Below, in pieces: positions 45,162-62,890 of a DNA stretch of 64,000 bases. Both the position numbers and the translations under genes were made by a program. The stretch's first letter is position 1, and every line of letters starts with the position of its first letter. Source of the stretch: an uncultured Paracoccaceae bacterium. Lineage in GTDB: Bacteria > Pseudomonadota > Alphaproteobacteria > Rhodobacterales > Rhodobacteraceae. The stretch is from contig CANNCO010000002.1 in the NCBI GenBank assembly GCA_947503175.1, positions 248,001 to 312,000 on the forward strand. Direction: 5' to 3'. Under the pieces are notes generated by a model. That model did no database searches. It was not told the DNA's origin and saw only the letters and a program-made list of their open reading frames with translations.

Positions 45162-45223
45162 CGGCGTGGCGAGCAGACGCGAAGGCGGCACAGAACTTCT
45201 GAATCTCAGTCGAAATGGCACCC

Positions 45224-45309
45224 GCCAAGCTTGATACAGCGTTGTTGAGTCCGCGCGTTCCCGCCGTCGCAAAAACCGATCTCGATCCCGATGCCCCTGC
45301 GATCCGGCT
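45224..45309 (+). pseudogene. Inverted remnant of an ABC-transporter gene (homologue of the gene at 45533-47149)
   Basis: This plus-strand piece reads KLDTALLSPRVPAVAKTD then LDPDAPAIRL, against KLDSALSSPRIPSIAKAD then LDPDAPAIRL in the intact minus-strand ABC protein. By hand alignment to 46167-46252, about 11 of 86 bases differ, and the last 26 match fully. It ends in a stop shortly afterwards and has no flanking ABC sequence, so it is a fragment of a diverged second copy in opposite orientation. The rest of the 45162-45532 gap shows nothing recognisable. Confidence 0.85.
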
Positions 45310-45532
45310 TCGGTGACCTGCGTCCGCCACGAGTCCGCACACGAAGGTTGCTCCGTTCGGGGAACTCGGCATTCTCAAGGCATCACCGGCCACTGAAACG
45401 GACATACGACTTCCATATAGTCCATGCGTCATCCAGCTTCCGGGAACAGGCCGGTCTTCGGCGAAGATGTGGTCTTGGCGACTGCGAATTCACTGTGGCG
45501 CTGCGGCCTAGAACCTAACGTCAACGACCGGA

Positions 45533-47149
45533 TCACGCCGCCGCGGCACTGGATCGTTGCCCATCTTGGGGATTGCTCTTCCGCAACACAAGCGGAGCAC
45601 CAGTGATCGTGCGCCGGACGCGGGTCGAGGTCACCACGAGGGCAGCGGTCCCGCATTTTTCGAAATGGTCGAGCAGGAGAGACAGGTCATCCCCATCAAG
45701 CCCGATCTCGTCGGCATCGACCAATGAAAGCGCGGGACGCGCGATCAGGCCACGGGCAAGGTAAAGACCCGTGCGCTCGGACGAGGTCAGATTGCGGCCA
45801 CCTTCAGCCACCTGACCGCCAAGCCCGCCAAGGCGCGCGGCCATGTCAGACAATCCCGACAGGCCAAGCACGGCTTCGAGCTCCTCGTCCTGCGGGGTCC
45901 GGCCCGTCCCAAGCGTCAAGGTGCGGCGCAGCGAACCTCTCAGCATCGGCGCATGGGGTCCCAGATAAAGTATGCGTCCACTTGTGAGAGCGGCCGGGGT
46001 ACTTCCCAGAGTTTCCAGTGTCCCCTCGCGCGGCGAAGCTTCGAACCCGGCAAGCGTCAGCAACAGACGGCTCTTGCCGCTGCTTGCAGGGCCGGTCAGG
46101 CGCCGAACCGCGCCACGCTCCAATGTAAGGTCGATCGGCTGCACCCCCGGAAGGCACAGGCGGTCCAGCCGGATCGCAGGGGCATCGGGATCAAGATCGG
46201 CTTTTGCGATGGAGGGAATGCGTGGACTCGACAGTGCTGAGTCAAGCTTGGCACGTGCCACACTGAACGCCTTTTGACGGTCTCGCACATCCGCGAGGTG
46301 GCGCAGCGGCCAGACGATCAGCGCAAGCGCCGTAAGTGCTGCAACGGCATCGGCGACACCCAGGCCAAGCGTCAGGCAGACCCAAAGACAAAGTGCTCCG
46401 GCCGCACCCGCCGCGGCGTCGGGCATGGCGCGAACGGTTTCGGCCAGCCAGGCGCGCCGTACCGCCGCGCGCACGATGTCGCGCGATTTCGTATCAAGCG
46501 CCCGCAATTCGGTCTGGACCCGCCCTGACCGGCGCAGGGCAATTCCTTGCGGCAGACGCTCGGCCATGGCGGCGGCCAGCCGCGCGCGTTTGCTGCGCAG
46601 GTCTGCATGGGCCTCGCCCAGTGGTCGGCCAAGCCATAGAATGGCCACCATCACCAGGCCGATGGGTCCGGCTGCCACGAGCGCAAGTCGCGGATCGAGC
46701 AGATATAGGATCAGGAAGGCCGCGGGGATCGTGGCGGACGCGGAAATGAGGCGCGCCAACCCGCGCGCCACCCAGCCCTTGAACGCCGTCAGATCGCCCA
46801 CGAAGCGGAGCGCAACGGCACCGGCGCGGCGTTCGGCCATTGCACTGAGCGGCATCTTGGTCATGTGCAGAAACAGCACCCGCCGGATCGCAGCGGCGTA
46901 GCTTTGGCCAGTGCGCTCGCCCAACGCGCCCTCGGCCGAGCGGAGTGTGAATATGGCCAGCCCCGAGACTGCGATGGCGATAAGCGCCTGCACCGGTATG
47001 GTGTCGCCGCCGTCGCGCAGCGCCCCGATGACGTCGCGGGTGGCGAAGGCGGTCACCACCATGGTGCCCGCCTGTCCCAGGGCCAGGCAGACAAGCGCCA
47101 GAAGTCCGATCCAGCGCTTGTCGCCCGTGACCTTCGGCCTCCGGCTCAT
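45533..47149 (-). CDS. ABC transporter half (CydC-like) with degenerate ATPase site
   Basis: A 538-residue half exporter. The ATG at 47149 overlaps the P-loop gene's stop (ATGA). Six hydrophobic helices lie within residues 10-290. The ATPase domain keeps Walker A GPASSGKSR near residue 355. The signature is LTSSE where LSGGQ is expected. The Walker B end reads LVDADE, with Ala in place of the catalytic Glu. The H-loop histidine is missing (VVTSTRV), and the Q-loop glutamine is not evident. It would bind ATP but hydrolyse poorly by itself. No partner half is encoded nearby. It is the last gene of the regulator-hydroxylase cluster and may export or signal its product. Confidence 0.8.
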   Translation of the reverse strand: MSRRPKVTGDKRWIGLLALVCLALGQAGTMVVTAFATRDVIGALRDGGDTIPVQALIAIAVSGLAIFTLRSAEGALGERTGQSYAAAIRRVLFLHMTKMPLSAMAERRAGAVALRFVGDLTAFKGWVARGLARLISASATIPAAFLILYLLDPRLALVAAGPIGLVMVAILWLGRPLGEAHADLRSKRARLAAAMAERLPQGIALRRSGRVQTELRALDTKSRDIVRAAVRRAWLAETVRAMPDAAAGAAGALCLWVCLTLGLGVADAVAALTALALIVWPLRHLADVRDRQKAFSVARAKLDSALSSPRIPSIAKADLDPDAPAIRLDRLCLPGVQPIDLTLERGAVRRLTGPASSGKSRLLLTLAGFEASPREGTLETLGSTPAALTSGRILYLGPHAPMLRGSLRRTLTLGTGRTPQDEELEAVLGLSGLSDMAARLGGLGGQVAEGGRNLTSSERTGLYLARGLIARPALSLVDADEIGLDGDDLSLLLDHFEKCGTAALVVTSTRVRRTITGAPLVLRKSNPQDGQRSSAAAA

Positions 47150-48213
47150 GCCGCGCCCACCCGCGAACCATGCGACAGGATCCCGTTCAGACACGAGGCG
47201 GTGGCCGGGTCGGACAGGTCCTCGCGCGAGAAGACCGGTAAACCGAGCGTTTCGGCCTCGGCCACCGCAAGTGGCGCCTGCGTCATCAAACCCGTCAGCG
47301 CGACAGGCGCGATCTGCGCCTCTGCCGACAGCCAGTCAAGGGCGCCCCGCGCCGCCAGCGCGCCAGGAGCGGCCAGAAGGAACGCATCGAACAAGGCGCG
47401 ATAATTCTGGCAACGCAACAGCTCGGCGGTTTCGACCTGGCTGATACCATCGGCAAGCTCCACGATAGCGATGTCGCAGTCTGCCGCCGCCGACAGAAGC
47501 GTCCGCGTCACGCCTTCGAGGCGATCCACTGACTGCCGGTAGGTCGAGGCCAGCCCCACATCGGTGAAATCCAGAACTTCCGCTGCGCCTGCCGCTTCGT
47601 AGTGCTGAACATCCCCGAAGGATCCCGTGCCCGTAGCTTTGATCGCCGCGACCCGAGCACCGAAACGAGCGAAGCCGTTGACGAGGCCCGCGGCAGCGGC
47701 GGTCTTCCCGGCATTCATGCCCGTACCCAGAACTCCGACGACGCGAGCCGGCCGCGACCCTGGCAAGGCCTCGAGCGCATAGTCGGCCACATTCGCGACG
47801 CAGCCATTACCGTCCGCCAGCCGCCCGATCACCGACAGACGCGTGGGGCGTTTGACCTTGCCATTGCGCGATCGCATTTGTCCTACGACACCGCCGCCAG
47901 CCAGCAGGTCGGCGCCCTCTCCTGACAACACGGCAACGCCTTCGAACTGGTCTTCGGCGAAACGGTCGGCACAGGCTAACACCACGCGGTCCTTGGGAAA
48001 GAGCGCCGAGAACCGGCCATCGCTCAATTGCAATCGCTTGTGGCTGCCAAGCTCCTGAACCTCGGCGAGCACTAGATCGCCGGATCGCGCCGAGGCCAGA
48101 TCGCCGTCGAGCAACCGGATCTCCCCACGCCGCACCCGGCGCGTGACGAAGCTCCACTTGGCACCTGCAAGAAGCGGGGAAGCCGCTGAATTCATGTCGA
48201 CAAGATGCATCAT
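47146..48213 (-). CDS. P-loop NTPase of unknown family (DUF1611/MobB-like)
   Basis: A 355-residue protein. The first 115 residues form a beta-rich domain (GDLVLAEVQELGSHKRL, DGRFSALFPKDRVVLA). A P-loop GTGMNAGKT at about 163-171 then starts a SIMIBI-type nucleotide-binding domain with ARVAAIKATGTGS and DCDIAIVELADGI. The layout recalls DUF1611 or dethiobiotin-synthetase-like proteins, whose known relatives ligate or acylate small acids. I cannot name the reaction. It overlaps both neighbours by four bases (ATGA), with GGAGG upstream of the start, so it belongs to one coupled operon with the hydrolase and the ABC gene. Confidence 0.65.
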   Translation of the reverse strand: MMHLVDMNSAASPLLAGAKWSFVTRRVRRGEIRLLDGDLASARSGDLVLAEVQELGSHKRLQLSDGRFSALFPKDRVVLACADRFAEDQFEGVAVLSGEGADLLAGGGVVGQMRSRNGKVKRPTRLSVIGRLADGNGCVANVADYALEALPGSRPARVVGVLGTGMNAGKTAAAAGLVNGFARFGARVAAIKATGTGSFGDVQHYEAAGAAEVLDFTDVGLASTYRQSVDRLEGVTRTLLSAAADCDIAIVELADGISQVETAELLRCQNYRALFDAFLLAAPGALAARGALDWLSAEAQIAPVALTGLMTQAPLAVAEAETLGLPVFSREDLSDPATASCLNGILSHGSRVGAA

Positions 48214-49049
48214 GCTACCTCCACAAGCTGGTCGTGCCGCCGCATGGGCAACGTTTTGGTTTCCATGGTCGCTTCCGGGACGAATGCGCGGTCGAGCGAC
48301 CCATTCGCCACACAATCCGCGAAGCTGTGTGCGCTGTTGTCCATCAGCCGAAAGCCGATCCGCGGACGAAGCCCGGCCTTTCGCGCCGCGCGTAGTGCGG
48401 CGGCGGTCCAGTTGCGGGCGCGTATGACCCTGTTCGCACCTTGCTGCGCCATCACATCAGGCTCCTGGCGCAGGTTATCGTCCTGCGCCACGTCGAGCGC
48501 GCCGACCATCACCTGGATTTCGCGATCGAGGAACCGTGCAAGGTTCGCACGCAGGCGAAAGGCCGCAACACCCTCGCCCGGCCCGTCCAAGCCAACTCCC
48601 AAAGGATAGGCCCCGCGCACGTCGGGGAAGGTCCACCATCCCGGCGCCACCAGGCACAGCCGCGCCACGCGGTCGGGATAGAGCCAGGCGAAACGATGCG
48701 CGAATTGCGCGCCGCCCGAAAAACCCGACAGGTCCGGCACGCCCGCGCCGATCCGGCCTTCTTCTCGCAGGACTCGCAACAGATCGAGCAAAGCCCAGTC
48801 GGACCGCTGTGCACAAGCCGCCCGCTGAAAGCGCAGCCAGGAGGTGCGGGCGAAGATCGGCAGGACGATAGTGCGCCCGGTCGCGTCCGCCCGCGGGGCC
48901 AGCAGATCGGCCATTACCCCGGCTTCACGGTTCAAGCCATGGATCGCGACCACGGGCGGCGCAGCATCGGCCACCTCTGGCCGGATCAGCCATGTCGACG
49001 GCAATACGCCCGGGACGCCGCGTCGAAAGAAAATCTGTGCCATTGTCAT
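48210..49049 (-). CDS. Alpha/beta hydrolase, possible esterase or thioesterase
   Basis: A 279-residue alpha/beta hydrolase without a signal peptide. The oxyanion region is VVAIHGLNREAG near residue 34. The nucleophile elbow GFSGGAQFAHRF places Ser at about 111. The acid is probably in MVGALDVAQD, and the histidine in DNSAHSFADC near the end. It overlaps the hydroxylase and P-loop genes (ATGA on both sides). A hydrolase within a hydroxylase-ligase-exporter cluster suggests release or trimming of a small product, but the substrate is unknown. Confidence 0.8.
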   Translation of the reverse strand: MTMAQIFFRRGVPGVLPSTWLIRPEVADAAPPVVAIHGLNREAGVMADLLAPRADATGRTIVLPIFARTSWLRFQRAACAQRSDWALLDLLRVLREEGRIGAGVPDLSGFSGGAQFAHRFAWLYPDRVARLCLVAPGWWTFPDVRGAYPLGVGLDGPGEGVAAFRLRANLARFLDREIQVMVGALDVAQDDNLRQEPDVMAQQGANRVIRARNWTAAALRAARKAGLRPRIGFRLMDNSAHSFADCVANGSLDRAFVPEATMETKTLPMRRHDQLVEVA

Positions 49050-49648
49050 GCCGCCTTTTCGAAAGTCGCGCGGGCCTTTTCGGTCGAGGCGGCGGCGCGG
49101 GCGCGCATCTTGGCCGGGAGCAGGTCGAAGATGATGTGAATGCGGTCCTCATCGCCGTCGTTGAAAGCTTCGTGCATCTGGTCGTTGTCGAACCACCACA
49201 ATTCGCCTTCCTTCATGCGGATTTCCTCGTCGGCAGCCTTGAGCCACGACCCCGCCGAAGACTTCAGAACGAAGTGGTAGCGCCCGCGGAGGCGGTAGTA
49301 CTCGCCGCGATCGACATGCGGATAGACCTTCCGGCCAGCAGGAAGGCACACGATCTTGGCACGGCTCAGGTCCGCGTCCAGTTCGGCCGCGACATCCTCC
49401 AGAAAGGCGCGGGCGACGGGGAACTTGACCGATCCGGTGGTCCAGCGGCTTTCATGCACGTCCCGCCGGGCGCGCCCCAGGATCATCGACTTGCGCAAGC
49501 CCCTGAGCGGGATCGCCAGCGCCTCGCGCTGGACTGCGATCTTTTCCTGGCGGCCCGTGGCATCGGCCCAAGCATCATCGACACCGACGATCTCGGCCAA
49601 GAACGGTTCGACCGGAACGTTGCTGCGGATCCTCTTGAAATACTTCAT
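49046..49648 (-). CDS. Aspartyl/asparaginyl beta-hydroxylase family protein (2-oxoglutarate, Fe(II))
   Basis: A 200-residue protein of the AspH/LpxO type. The metal and co-substrate residues are visible. His111 and Asp113 lie in YPHVDRGEYYRLRGRYHFVL, with Arg121 and Arg123 nearby. His159 lies in DNDQMHEAF, and Arg169 in EDRIHIIFDLL. Family members hydroxylate Asp or Asn side chains, free amino acids or lipid acyl chains. The ATG at 49648 with GAGGAG upstream gives the normal domain length; the longer frame is not supported. It follows the response-regulator gene by 179 bp. A natural product or modified amino acid is the likely target. Confidence 0.82.
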   Translation of the reverse strand: MKYFKRIRSNVPVEPFLAEIVGVDDAWADATGRQEKIAVQREALAIPLRGLRKSMILGRARRDVHESRWTTGSVKFPVARAFLEDVAAELDADLSRAKIVCLPAGRKVYPHVDRGEYYRLRGRYHFVLKSSAGSWLKAADEEIRMKEGELWWFDNDQMHEAFNDGDEDRIHIIFDLLPAKMRARAAASTEKARATFEKAA

Positions 49649-49827
49649 GCCTTTCTCCTCGCTGTTATGCACCGTCCACCGCGGAAGGTGCTTAGAAAAA
49701 TCGAAGTCTCGTTCCCCACAAACAGAGCTAGGTCCGAAGCTGACGGCGGGCTGACAGCCTTGACCCGAGCAGGCGAACCGGCAGTGTTTTGCCATCCGGC
49801 AAGGTTGGTTGGGGTCGGTCGAGCGGG

Positions 49828-50520
49828 TCATCGGCTCGGTCCCCCATCCTGTTCGGCGATGGTCAGGCGCCATCCGACGCTGCGCACCGCGGTAATGCGG
49901 GCCGGGCATGCAGCAGATTCGAGGGAGCGTCGCAACCGCGACAGCAGCGCCTCGGTGGCATTGCGGCTGGGGGGTCGCTCGGGCCCATAGACAGCCGCCT
50001 CCAGCATCGCGCGCGGTACCGGGTGGGCCAGATGGCGGACAAGGATCGCAAGCGCGGCACGTTCTCGCATCGACAGGGCAAGTGGCACACCGGCGAAGGA
50101 TGCCTGTCGGGCATCGCGGCTGACGATCAGCGCACCGGCACGATAGGTCCTGGTTCCACCATGGCGCGCGCGGTCGAGAACGGCCCGGATGCGGGCCATC
50201 AACTCGGGCATCGCCACGGGCTTCAACACCCAGTCATCCGCGCGGTGCAGCAGACCGGCCCCGCAGCCCGCCAGCGCCGTTTTGGGGACGAGCGCGATCA
50301 TTGGGATATGCCCGCCGGCGTTCCGCTCGGCCAGAAGCGCCTTCGCCCCGTGGTTCGGCGGCGAAAGATCGATGAGCGCGAGATCATGGCGCAAGAGCGC
50401 CATGATGCCCTTCGCCTCAGACGGGCAGCGCGCGAAATCGAGCCGCAGGCCCGCAGCTAAAAGCTGTTTCGCAAGTGGCGTCTGCTCGGAAGCAACTCTT
50501 TCGATCAAGAGCAGTTGCAT
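49828..50520 (-). CDS. OmpR-family winged-helix response regulator (atypical receiver)
   Basis: A 230-residue regulator. Residues 1-115 form a receiver domain with the likely phosphoacceptor Asp51 in HDLALIDLSPPN and the conserved Lys in DDWVLKPVAMPEL. The usual acidic pair near the start is reduced to IERVA, so metal-dependent phosphorylation is doubtful. The C-terminal winged helix ends ALLSRLRRSLESA and VRSVGWRLTI. No kinase gene is adjacent. It heads the hydroxylase-ABC cluster on the same strand and probably controls it. A piece of this gene recurs inverted at 50926-51010. Confidence 0.82.
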   Translation of the reverse strand: MQLLLIERVASEQTPLAKQLLAAGLRLDFARCPSEAKGIMALLRHDLALIDLSPPNHGAKALLAERNAGGHIPMIALVPKTALAGCGAGLLHRADDWVLKPVAMPELMARIRAVLDRARHGGTRTYRAGALIVSRDARQASFAGVPLALSMRERAALAILVRHLAHPVPRAMLEAAVYGPERPPSRNATEALLSRLRRSLESAACPARITAVRSVGWRLTIAEQDGGPSR

Positions 50521-50925
50521 GGTCTTCTGGCCCCGTGATTACATGAAGGCGTAACGCCCCGTCTGGTCGCAATCAGACTGACCAACAGCCTGTGCAAATC
50601 CATACGCTGGAGGTTGAAGCGGCAATCGCAGAGGCGATCTATACCTGCGGTTTAGACGCTCTATCCGTCACCTTTACAGCGACAATCCCTTACAAATATC
50701 GGCGTTTCTGTCGTTTGCTTTCGAGGCGCTCAAAGCTCGGCTTTTTTCCATGAAACACGAACAACACCTTCGATGTCCGGCGTCGATCGGCCGGGCACAT
50801 ACCATCGGTTTATGCGCAGAAGCGCCGGACGGGCGGGAATCGGCTCCGCATCAACTCTTTTGTGCTCTGCAGTACGGCGGATCCGGCCGCGCGCATCCCT
50901 GATCCGGGGCGTACACGACGCCGCA
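50521..50925. other. Non-coding region upstream of the response regulator
   Basis: About 400 bp with no credible gene. It should contain the promoter of the response-regulator operon. The only identified structure is the inverted remnant that follows at 50926. The rest looks like decayed or shuffled sequence. Confidence 0.35.
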
Positions 50926-51010
50926 TCGCGCGCTGCCCGTCTGAGGCCAAGGGCATCATGGCGCTCCTGCGCCATGATCTCGCGCTCATCGATCTTTCGC
51001 CGCCGAACCA
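50926..51010 (+). pseudogene. Inverted remnant of the response-regulator gene
   Basis: This plus-strand 85-bp piece reads ARCPSEAKGIMALL then RHDLALIDLSPPN and is an inverted copy of 50351-50435, with only two differing bases by hand alignment. Similarity ends sharply on both sides. It cannot code for a working regulator. Its near identity means the event is recent or the copies are being converted, unlike the more diverged ABC remnant at 45224. Confidence 0.88.
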
Positions 51011-51113
51011 GCGAGGCTCGTCGCTTACACCCGGTTTCAGCTTCAAGATGATTGCGGAGATGGAACCAAACCGGACCGGCTCGAACGCGAAGACGGCTGA
51101 ACGGCCAAGCACC

Positions 51114-51731
51114 CTACTGGATCTTCGGCCGGAACAGCAACTTTACGTATGAGCGCAGGAGCAGAACCTGTTTCGAGGTGATCTCGGGCTGGCCCGTGGC
51201 GCGGGAAATGATGATCCCGCCCTCCACGACACCGCTCACCATATCTGCCAGGTGATCCAGGTCGATCTGGTCGTTTGGGGGATAAAGCGTTGCTATATCG
51301 TCGAACACGGCGCGGAACCGTTTCCGCCAGCCAAGGACGGCACGCCGGTTCGCATCCCGGACATCCTTGTTGAACAACCGGTCCTGATAGGCCGCGGTTG
51401 CGACAACACATCCCGGGTGACCACCCGGCATATCCTCGATCAGTTCGGCCAACAGCTTCAGCGCGATCAGAGCCACCTGTAGCGGGTCTTCCGAAAGCTC
51501 GTTTGCGCGGCCGAGCAGATCATCGAACAAGGTGTCCTCGACAAGGATGTACCGGTCAATCAGCGCCCTCGCCAACGCGTTCTTATCCTTGAAGTGGTAG
51601 AAGAAACCGCTTTTCGTGATTTCGGCATTCGCCACGATCTCGTCGATCGAAGTCGCCTCAAATCCCTTCGCGAGGATCGAATCCTGCGCGACATCGAGAA
51701 TCCTTGTGCGTGTCTCGCTGCCTCGCGCCAT
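51114..51731 (-). CDS. TetR-family transcriptional regulator
   Basis: A 205-residue regulator. The TetR HTH reads TRTRILDVAQDSILAKGFEATSID, in parts, followed by EITKSGFFYHFKDKNALARAL. The C-terminal two-thirds is a helical ligand pocket. The ATG at 51731 is chosen over an in-frame TTG nine bases upstream. It is divergent from the homocysteine methyltransferase gene, with dyads between them, and so is likely its repressor. The effector is unknown. Confidence 0.88.
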   Translation of the reverse strand: MARGSETRTRILDVAQDSILAKGFEATSIDEIVANAEITKSGFFYHFKDKNALARALIDRYILVEDTLFDDLLGRANELSEDPLQVALIALKLLAELIEDMPGGHPGCVVATAAYQDRLFNKDVRDANRRAVLGWRKRFRAVFDDIATLYPPNDQIDLDHLADMVSGVVEGGIIISRATGQPEITSKQVLLLRSYVKLLFRPKIQ

Positions 51732-62856: not shown

Positions 62857-62890
62857 GATCCCGGGCGCGGAACGGCTCGCGCCCGGGATC
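62857..62890 (+). terminator. Strong hairpin between TAXI binding protein and TRAP permease genes
   Basis: A perfect 13-bp stem, GATCCCGGGCGCG with CGCGCCCGGGATC, around an eight-base loop lies in the 101-bp gap. It lacks a T run, so it likely tunes expression of the binding protein relative to the permease, as with the other two hairpins in transport operons here. Confidence 0.7.

Follow-up and report, generated by a model that had tools for sequence, protein, structure and literature searches.

Most of what is known about inverted template switching in bacteria comes from laboratory selections. In E. coli, a single replication fork is given a span of ~1.5 kb, and it has been proposed that secondary structure triggers inverted switches within the fork (PMC3161906). 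Inverted units of 5-43 kb have been documented in lac amplification in E. coli and Salmonella (PMC3161906), and template switching from one arm to the other is known to homogenise inverted repeats (PMC8604942). The window analysed here, a stretch of 64,000 nucleotides from an uncultured Paracoccaceae bacterium (positions 248,001-312,000 of contig C2 in genome G000), contains an apparently acquired operon that is flanked on each side by a short stretch copied, in inverted orientation, from within the gene at that end.

The genes of the operon all lie on the minus strand. The gene at the left end (45533-47149) encodes a CydC/CydD-like ABC exporter subunit with a membrane domain and an ATPase domain (PF00664 and PF00005), with the CydC and CydD models themselves scoring far below cutoff. 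It is followed, in coordinate order, by genes for a P-loop protein with weak AAA_26/MobB-like similarity that is conserved at the related loci L050-L059 (47146-48213), an alpha/beta-hydrolase-like protein with no significant Pfam match and a weak match to HsaD hydrolase (48210-49049; E = 0.018), an aspartyl/asparaginyl beta-hydroxylase family protein (49046-49648; PF05118, E = 7e-17) and, at the right end, an OmpR-type response regulator with an atypical receiver domain (49828-50520; PF00486, with a weak PF00072 match below cutoff). The first four of these genes (45533-49648) form a conserved and apparently undescribed operon found in scattered roseobacters. This four-gene core was present in Roseobacter sp. 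HKCCD6576-2, three Tateyamaria genomes and one Paracoccaceae MAG, with the P-loop protein showing 76-83% identity, and more distantly in other genera, with different neighbours in every genome. The P-loop protein has matches in 41 of the 395 family genomes, and some 25 of these matches span almost its whole length. Since the GC content of the operon is 66%, compared with 58-59% in the LacI (left) and TetR (right) flanks, and since its neighbours change across genomes, the operon was probably acquired horizontally. In Roseobacter sp. HKCCD6576-2 the operon is immediately followed downstream by a gene for a phage-type tyrosine integrase (L051:10809-12230), a possible vehicle of transfer. PADLOC detected no defence genes.

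No histidine kinase adjoins the response regulator in the window, whereas a full histidine kinase and OmpR-type response regulator pair adjoins the operon at three related loci (L055:3902-6174, L056:3867-6139 and L058:9522-11905). The atypical response regulator alone remains in the window, in contrast with the kinase/regulator pair of several relatives, and no close homologue of their kinase was found in the window genome, the best match being 35% over the kinase core. At another related locus, the operon-adjoining response regulator is broken (L050:5888-6391), with its C-terminal half in another frame and the open frame ending at 167 aa.

On the left, an inverted piece of the ABC gene had been reported at 45224-45309 from the letters alone; our alignment recovered it and showed that it is slightly longer, occupying 45216-45309 on the plus strand. 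It matches 81 of 94 positions of a source segment at 46167-46260 (-), which encodes the linker between the membrane and ATPase domains, and the repeat search returned the pair as 94 nt with 86% identity and 857 nt between the arms (E about 1e-24 by chance for the 1.54 Mb searched). A spacer of 59% GC (45310-45532) separates the copy from the ABC stop codon. The copy carries the ABC sense sequence on the plus strand, in a frame that stays open to just beyond the copied stretch, and no second full copy of the piece was found elsewhere in the genome. The source segment contains no unusual hairpin and folds no better than its shuffles (z of +0.5 to +0.8).

Alignment with five outside orthologues showed the left copy to be sister to the present ABC gene, so the copy was taken from the ABC gene of its own lineage after the split from L050. 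Copy and gene match L050 at 71 and 70 of 96 positions, respectively, and L051 at 65 positions each; as the two are equally distant from both relatives, a piece of a foreign homologue is not supported as the origin of the copy. With the outside sequences as a guide, four of the differences read as changes in the copy, three of which are amino acid replacements (including Arg-to-Pro and Ser-to-Leu), and four read as changes in the ABC gene, three of which are silent, while the remaining differences are ambiguous. Although the numbers are small, this is the pattern expected for a copy that drifts freely and a gene that is under selection.

On the right, alignment bore out the claim of an 85-bp inverted piece of the response-regulator gene with two differences. 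This copy (50926-51010, +) is identical at 83 of 85 positions to an internal segment of the gene at 50351-50435 (-), and both differences are synonymous. The repeat search returned the pair as 85 nt with 98% identity and 490 nt between the arms (chance expectation of E about 1e-34, again for 1.54 Mb), and the genome contains no second full copy of this piece elsewhere. The copy lies within an open plus-strand frame (ORF 50862-51152). Its source segment holds a hairpin with a 10-bp stem at 50383-50406; stems of at least 9 bp occur in 0.8% of the 85-mers of the window and in 2.5% of those of the cluster, and the single strand of the source folds better than shuffled sequence (z of -2.6 to -2.9). 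The strongest hairpin in the window lies at 62857-62890 and has a perfect 13-bp stem (GATCCCGGGCGCG...CGCGCCCGGGATC). The right spacer (50521-50925, 57% GC) is the region upstream of the response regulator, and its first ~140 bp can be aligned with the corresponding region of L050. Because the response-regulator start and its upstream region follow the ordinary order in this alignment, the 490-bp spacer is in its original orientation and the small flip that the repeats would allow is absent.

Base-by-base alignment indicated that both copies end sharply, with no further similarity in their flanks. To determine how unusual such pairs are, we compared 1.54 Mb of the genome with itself (contig C2 in full and 740 kb of C3) and retained inverted pairs with E <= 1e-8, identity >= 70% and a distance of less than 10 kb. 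At these thresholds the left and right pairs were the only short, non-palindromic local inverted duplications, the other inverted matches being a 1.6-kb pair and two self-palindromes. In 400 kb from each of two control genomes, the comparison yielded only two self-palindromes and one inverted pair, a 124-bp match in G010 that reflects two divergent paralogous FAD-dehydrogenase-like genes and is not a scar. A weaker 68-bp inverted pair of 78% identity, below the search threshold, is present at G000:C2:225681-225748 / 227473-227540. If scars were placed at random in 1.54 Mb, a second would fall within 6 kb of the first in ~1% of cases, a figure that was calculated post hoc. No inverted pieces of the terminal genes were found at ten related operon loci, and neither intergenic segment had more than short, chance-like matches in the 395 family genomes.

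The two pairs differ in divergence, with 13 differences in 94 positions on the left and 2 in 85 on the right (Fisher p = 0.006). The idea that the remnants are of different ages is therefore supported, although later homogenisation of the right arms could imitate such a difference and make that copy look younger than it is. The left piece matches the ABC gene and the right piece the response regulator, so the pieces are unrelated to one another, and no significant inverted similarity was detected between the spacers or the outer junctions of the two sides. A mobile element with terminal inverted repeats would have related ends, in contrast with what is seen here. Since each piece pairs only with its own neighbouring gene, the whole cluster cannot flip between them, contrary to one suggestion of the sequence-only reading; recombination could invert just the 857 bp on the ABC side or the 490 bp on the response-regulator side.

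We found no relative that has both flanks without the operon. The same-genus genome G001 lacks the cluster as well as close LacI or methyltransferase matches, while G002 keeps the Tct-LacI flank and G009 the TetR-methyltransferase flank, neither joining the two. Plasmid searches gave no near match, only partial distant ones, and viral contigs gave none. Outside both scars, a 13-bp direct repeat matches at 12 of 13 positions (45177-45189 and 51085-51097, both +), but 10 of 500 shuffles scored equally high and the comparison was one of eight tests, making the repeat too weak to call a target-site duplication.

We consider it rather probable that two out-and-back inverted template switches, made at different times and on the right provoked by a hairpin, produced these scars, which are most likely without function. 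During replication or repair in the intergenic DNA outside each operon end, the growing strand would have left its template, the polymerase would have copied ~90 nt off the opposite strand, 490 or 857 bp away within the adjacent gene, and the strand would then have returned to the first template, so that an inverted copy was left past the end of that gene. The switch partners would lie within one replication fork. The left event would be old, with copy and gene having since diverged by 14%, while the right event would be recent, or its arms may have been made alike later; the hairpin in the response-regulator gene probably provoked it. The inverted copies, with their ends, uniqueness and unequal divergence, are observed directly; from them we infer this mechanism, the order of the events and the lack of function. 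As expected for such switches, each scar is a single nearby segment copied in inverted orientation with sharp ends, and the arm distances of 490 and 857 nt are below the ~1.5-kb span of a fork. Secondary structure at the switch source is present on the right and absent on the left. It is an uncomfortable coincidence for two independent switches that the sole such scars in 1.54 Mb sit 6 kb apart.

This coincidence would disappear under the main rival to template switching, in which a single cause accounts for both scars flanking one operon: the operon was amplified in forward-reverse-forward order (a tandem inversion duplication, or DUP-TRP/INV-DUP), the triplication collapsed to its middle copy and the forward copies on either side left only the two pieces behind. 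The geometry fits exactly, with the ABC pieces tail to tail on the left and the response-regulator pieces head to head on the right, giving the forward-reverse-forward order at both junctions. The two scars should then be of equal age, which the unequal divergence contradicts unless the right arms were homogenised, and two further deletions are required, each leaving about 90 bp. When both flanks were compared with the operon at high sensitivity, the two pieces were the only traces of operon genes to emerge. We regard such a collapse as possible but unlikely; it is likewise unlikely that the operon was once amplified in forward-reverse-forward order in nature, with the scars as its fossil and the present operon inverted relative to its original orientation. 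The sequence-only reading had also proposed that the cluster was gained more than once; repeated gain survives only in the form of this collapsed triplication, and the unequal ages count against it. Its further proposal, that the cluster replaced an older copy lying the other way, would account for inverted pieces of unequal age, but such a replacement should have left the response regulator on the left and the ABC gene on the right, the opposite of what is seen, and the left copy is sister to the present gene rather than to an outside homologue; we therefore view it as extremely improbable.

The contrast in GC between operon and flanks, together with the different neighbours of homologous operons in every genome, would also fit an illegitimate integration in which the ends of a linear operon folded back or were joined with filler copied from its own terminal genes, and short inverted templated insertions at breaks are described in yeast (PMC11724301). 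One such event should nevertheless give two scars of equal age, and the spacers between scars and genes are host-like in GC, although intergenic GC is often lower anyway, leaving this account rather improbable. A role for the repeats, whether as long hairpins or antisense in the operon transcripts or as an invertible response-regulator start, would fit right arms that are 98% alike, with silent differences only and the copy in an open frame. Between the ABC stop codon and the left copy we detected nothing resembling a terminator, and a transcript reading through from the ABC gene into that copy could fold on itself. Against a function, the upstream region conserved with L050 lies inside the right spacer, so a response-regulator transcript starting there would exclude the copy, and a flip would replace the first strand and helix of the receiver. 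We saw no recombinase gene next to the cluster, Rfam yielded nothing that attained a gathering score, and every homologous operon examined lacks the copies. We thus judge a function very improbable and the scars probably functionless. Strand-displacement amplification can generate inverted chimeras, but an artefact of assembly or amplification is hardly credible for copies that differ from their sources at 13 and 2 positions, in an assembly of 4.0 Mb and 16 contigs that is 100% complete and shows no further pair of this kind in the 1.54 Mb compared.

Taken together, the scars are real and unusual for this genome, and they are most readily viewed as a known mutational process caught in a natural setting. 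Two scars of different ages on either side of an apparently acquired operon make for a clean natural example, and they suggest that acquired DNA may be unusually unstable at its borders. They also indicate that inverted fragments adjoining an operon need not imply an earlier reversed copy.

As in the inverted template switching proposed at the E. coli fork (PMC3161906) and for the short inverted repeats of yeast (PMC8604942), a short inverted copy lies near its source, at less than the span of a fork, and one of the two copies has a hairpin at its source. The arms of 85-94 nt and spacers of 490-857 nt are longer than those of the short repeats in PMC8604942. With the tandem inversion duplications of the E. 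coli and Salmonella lac region, the locus shares the forward and reverse order of gene pieces on either side of an operon, but unlike the lac amplicons it retains just ~90-bp traces, of unequal divergence and with no amplified copies. The inverted templated pieces near an end likewise resemble the foldback insertions of yeast, which are mostly 5-34 bp and lie at a single break (PMC11724301), in contrast with the 85-94 bp, two sites and different ages of the scars described here.
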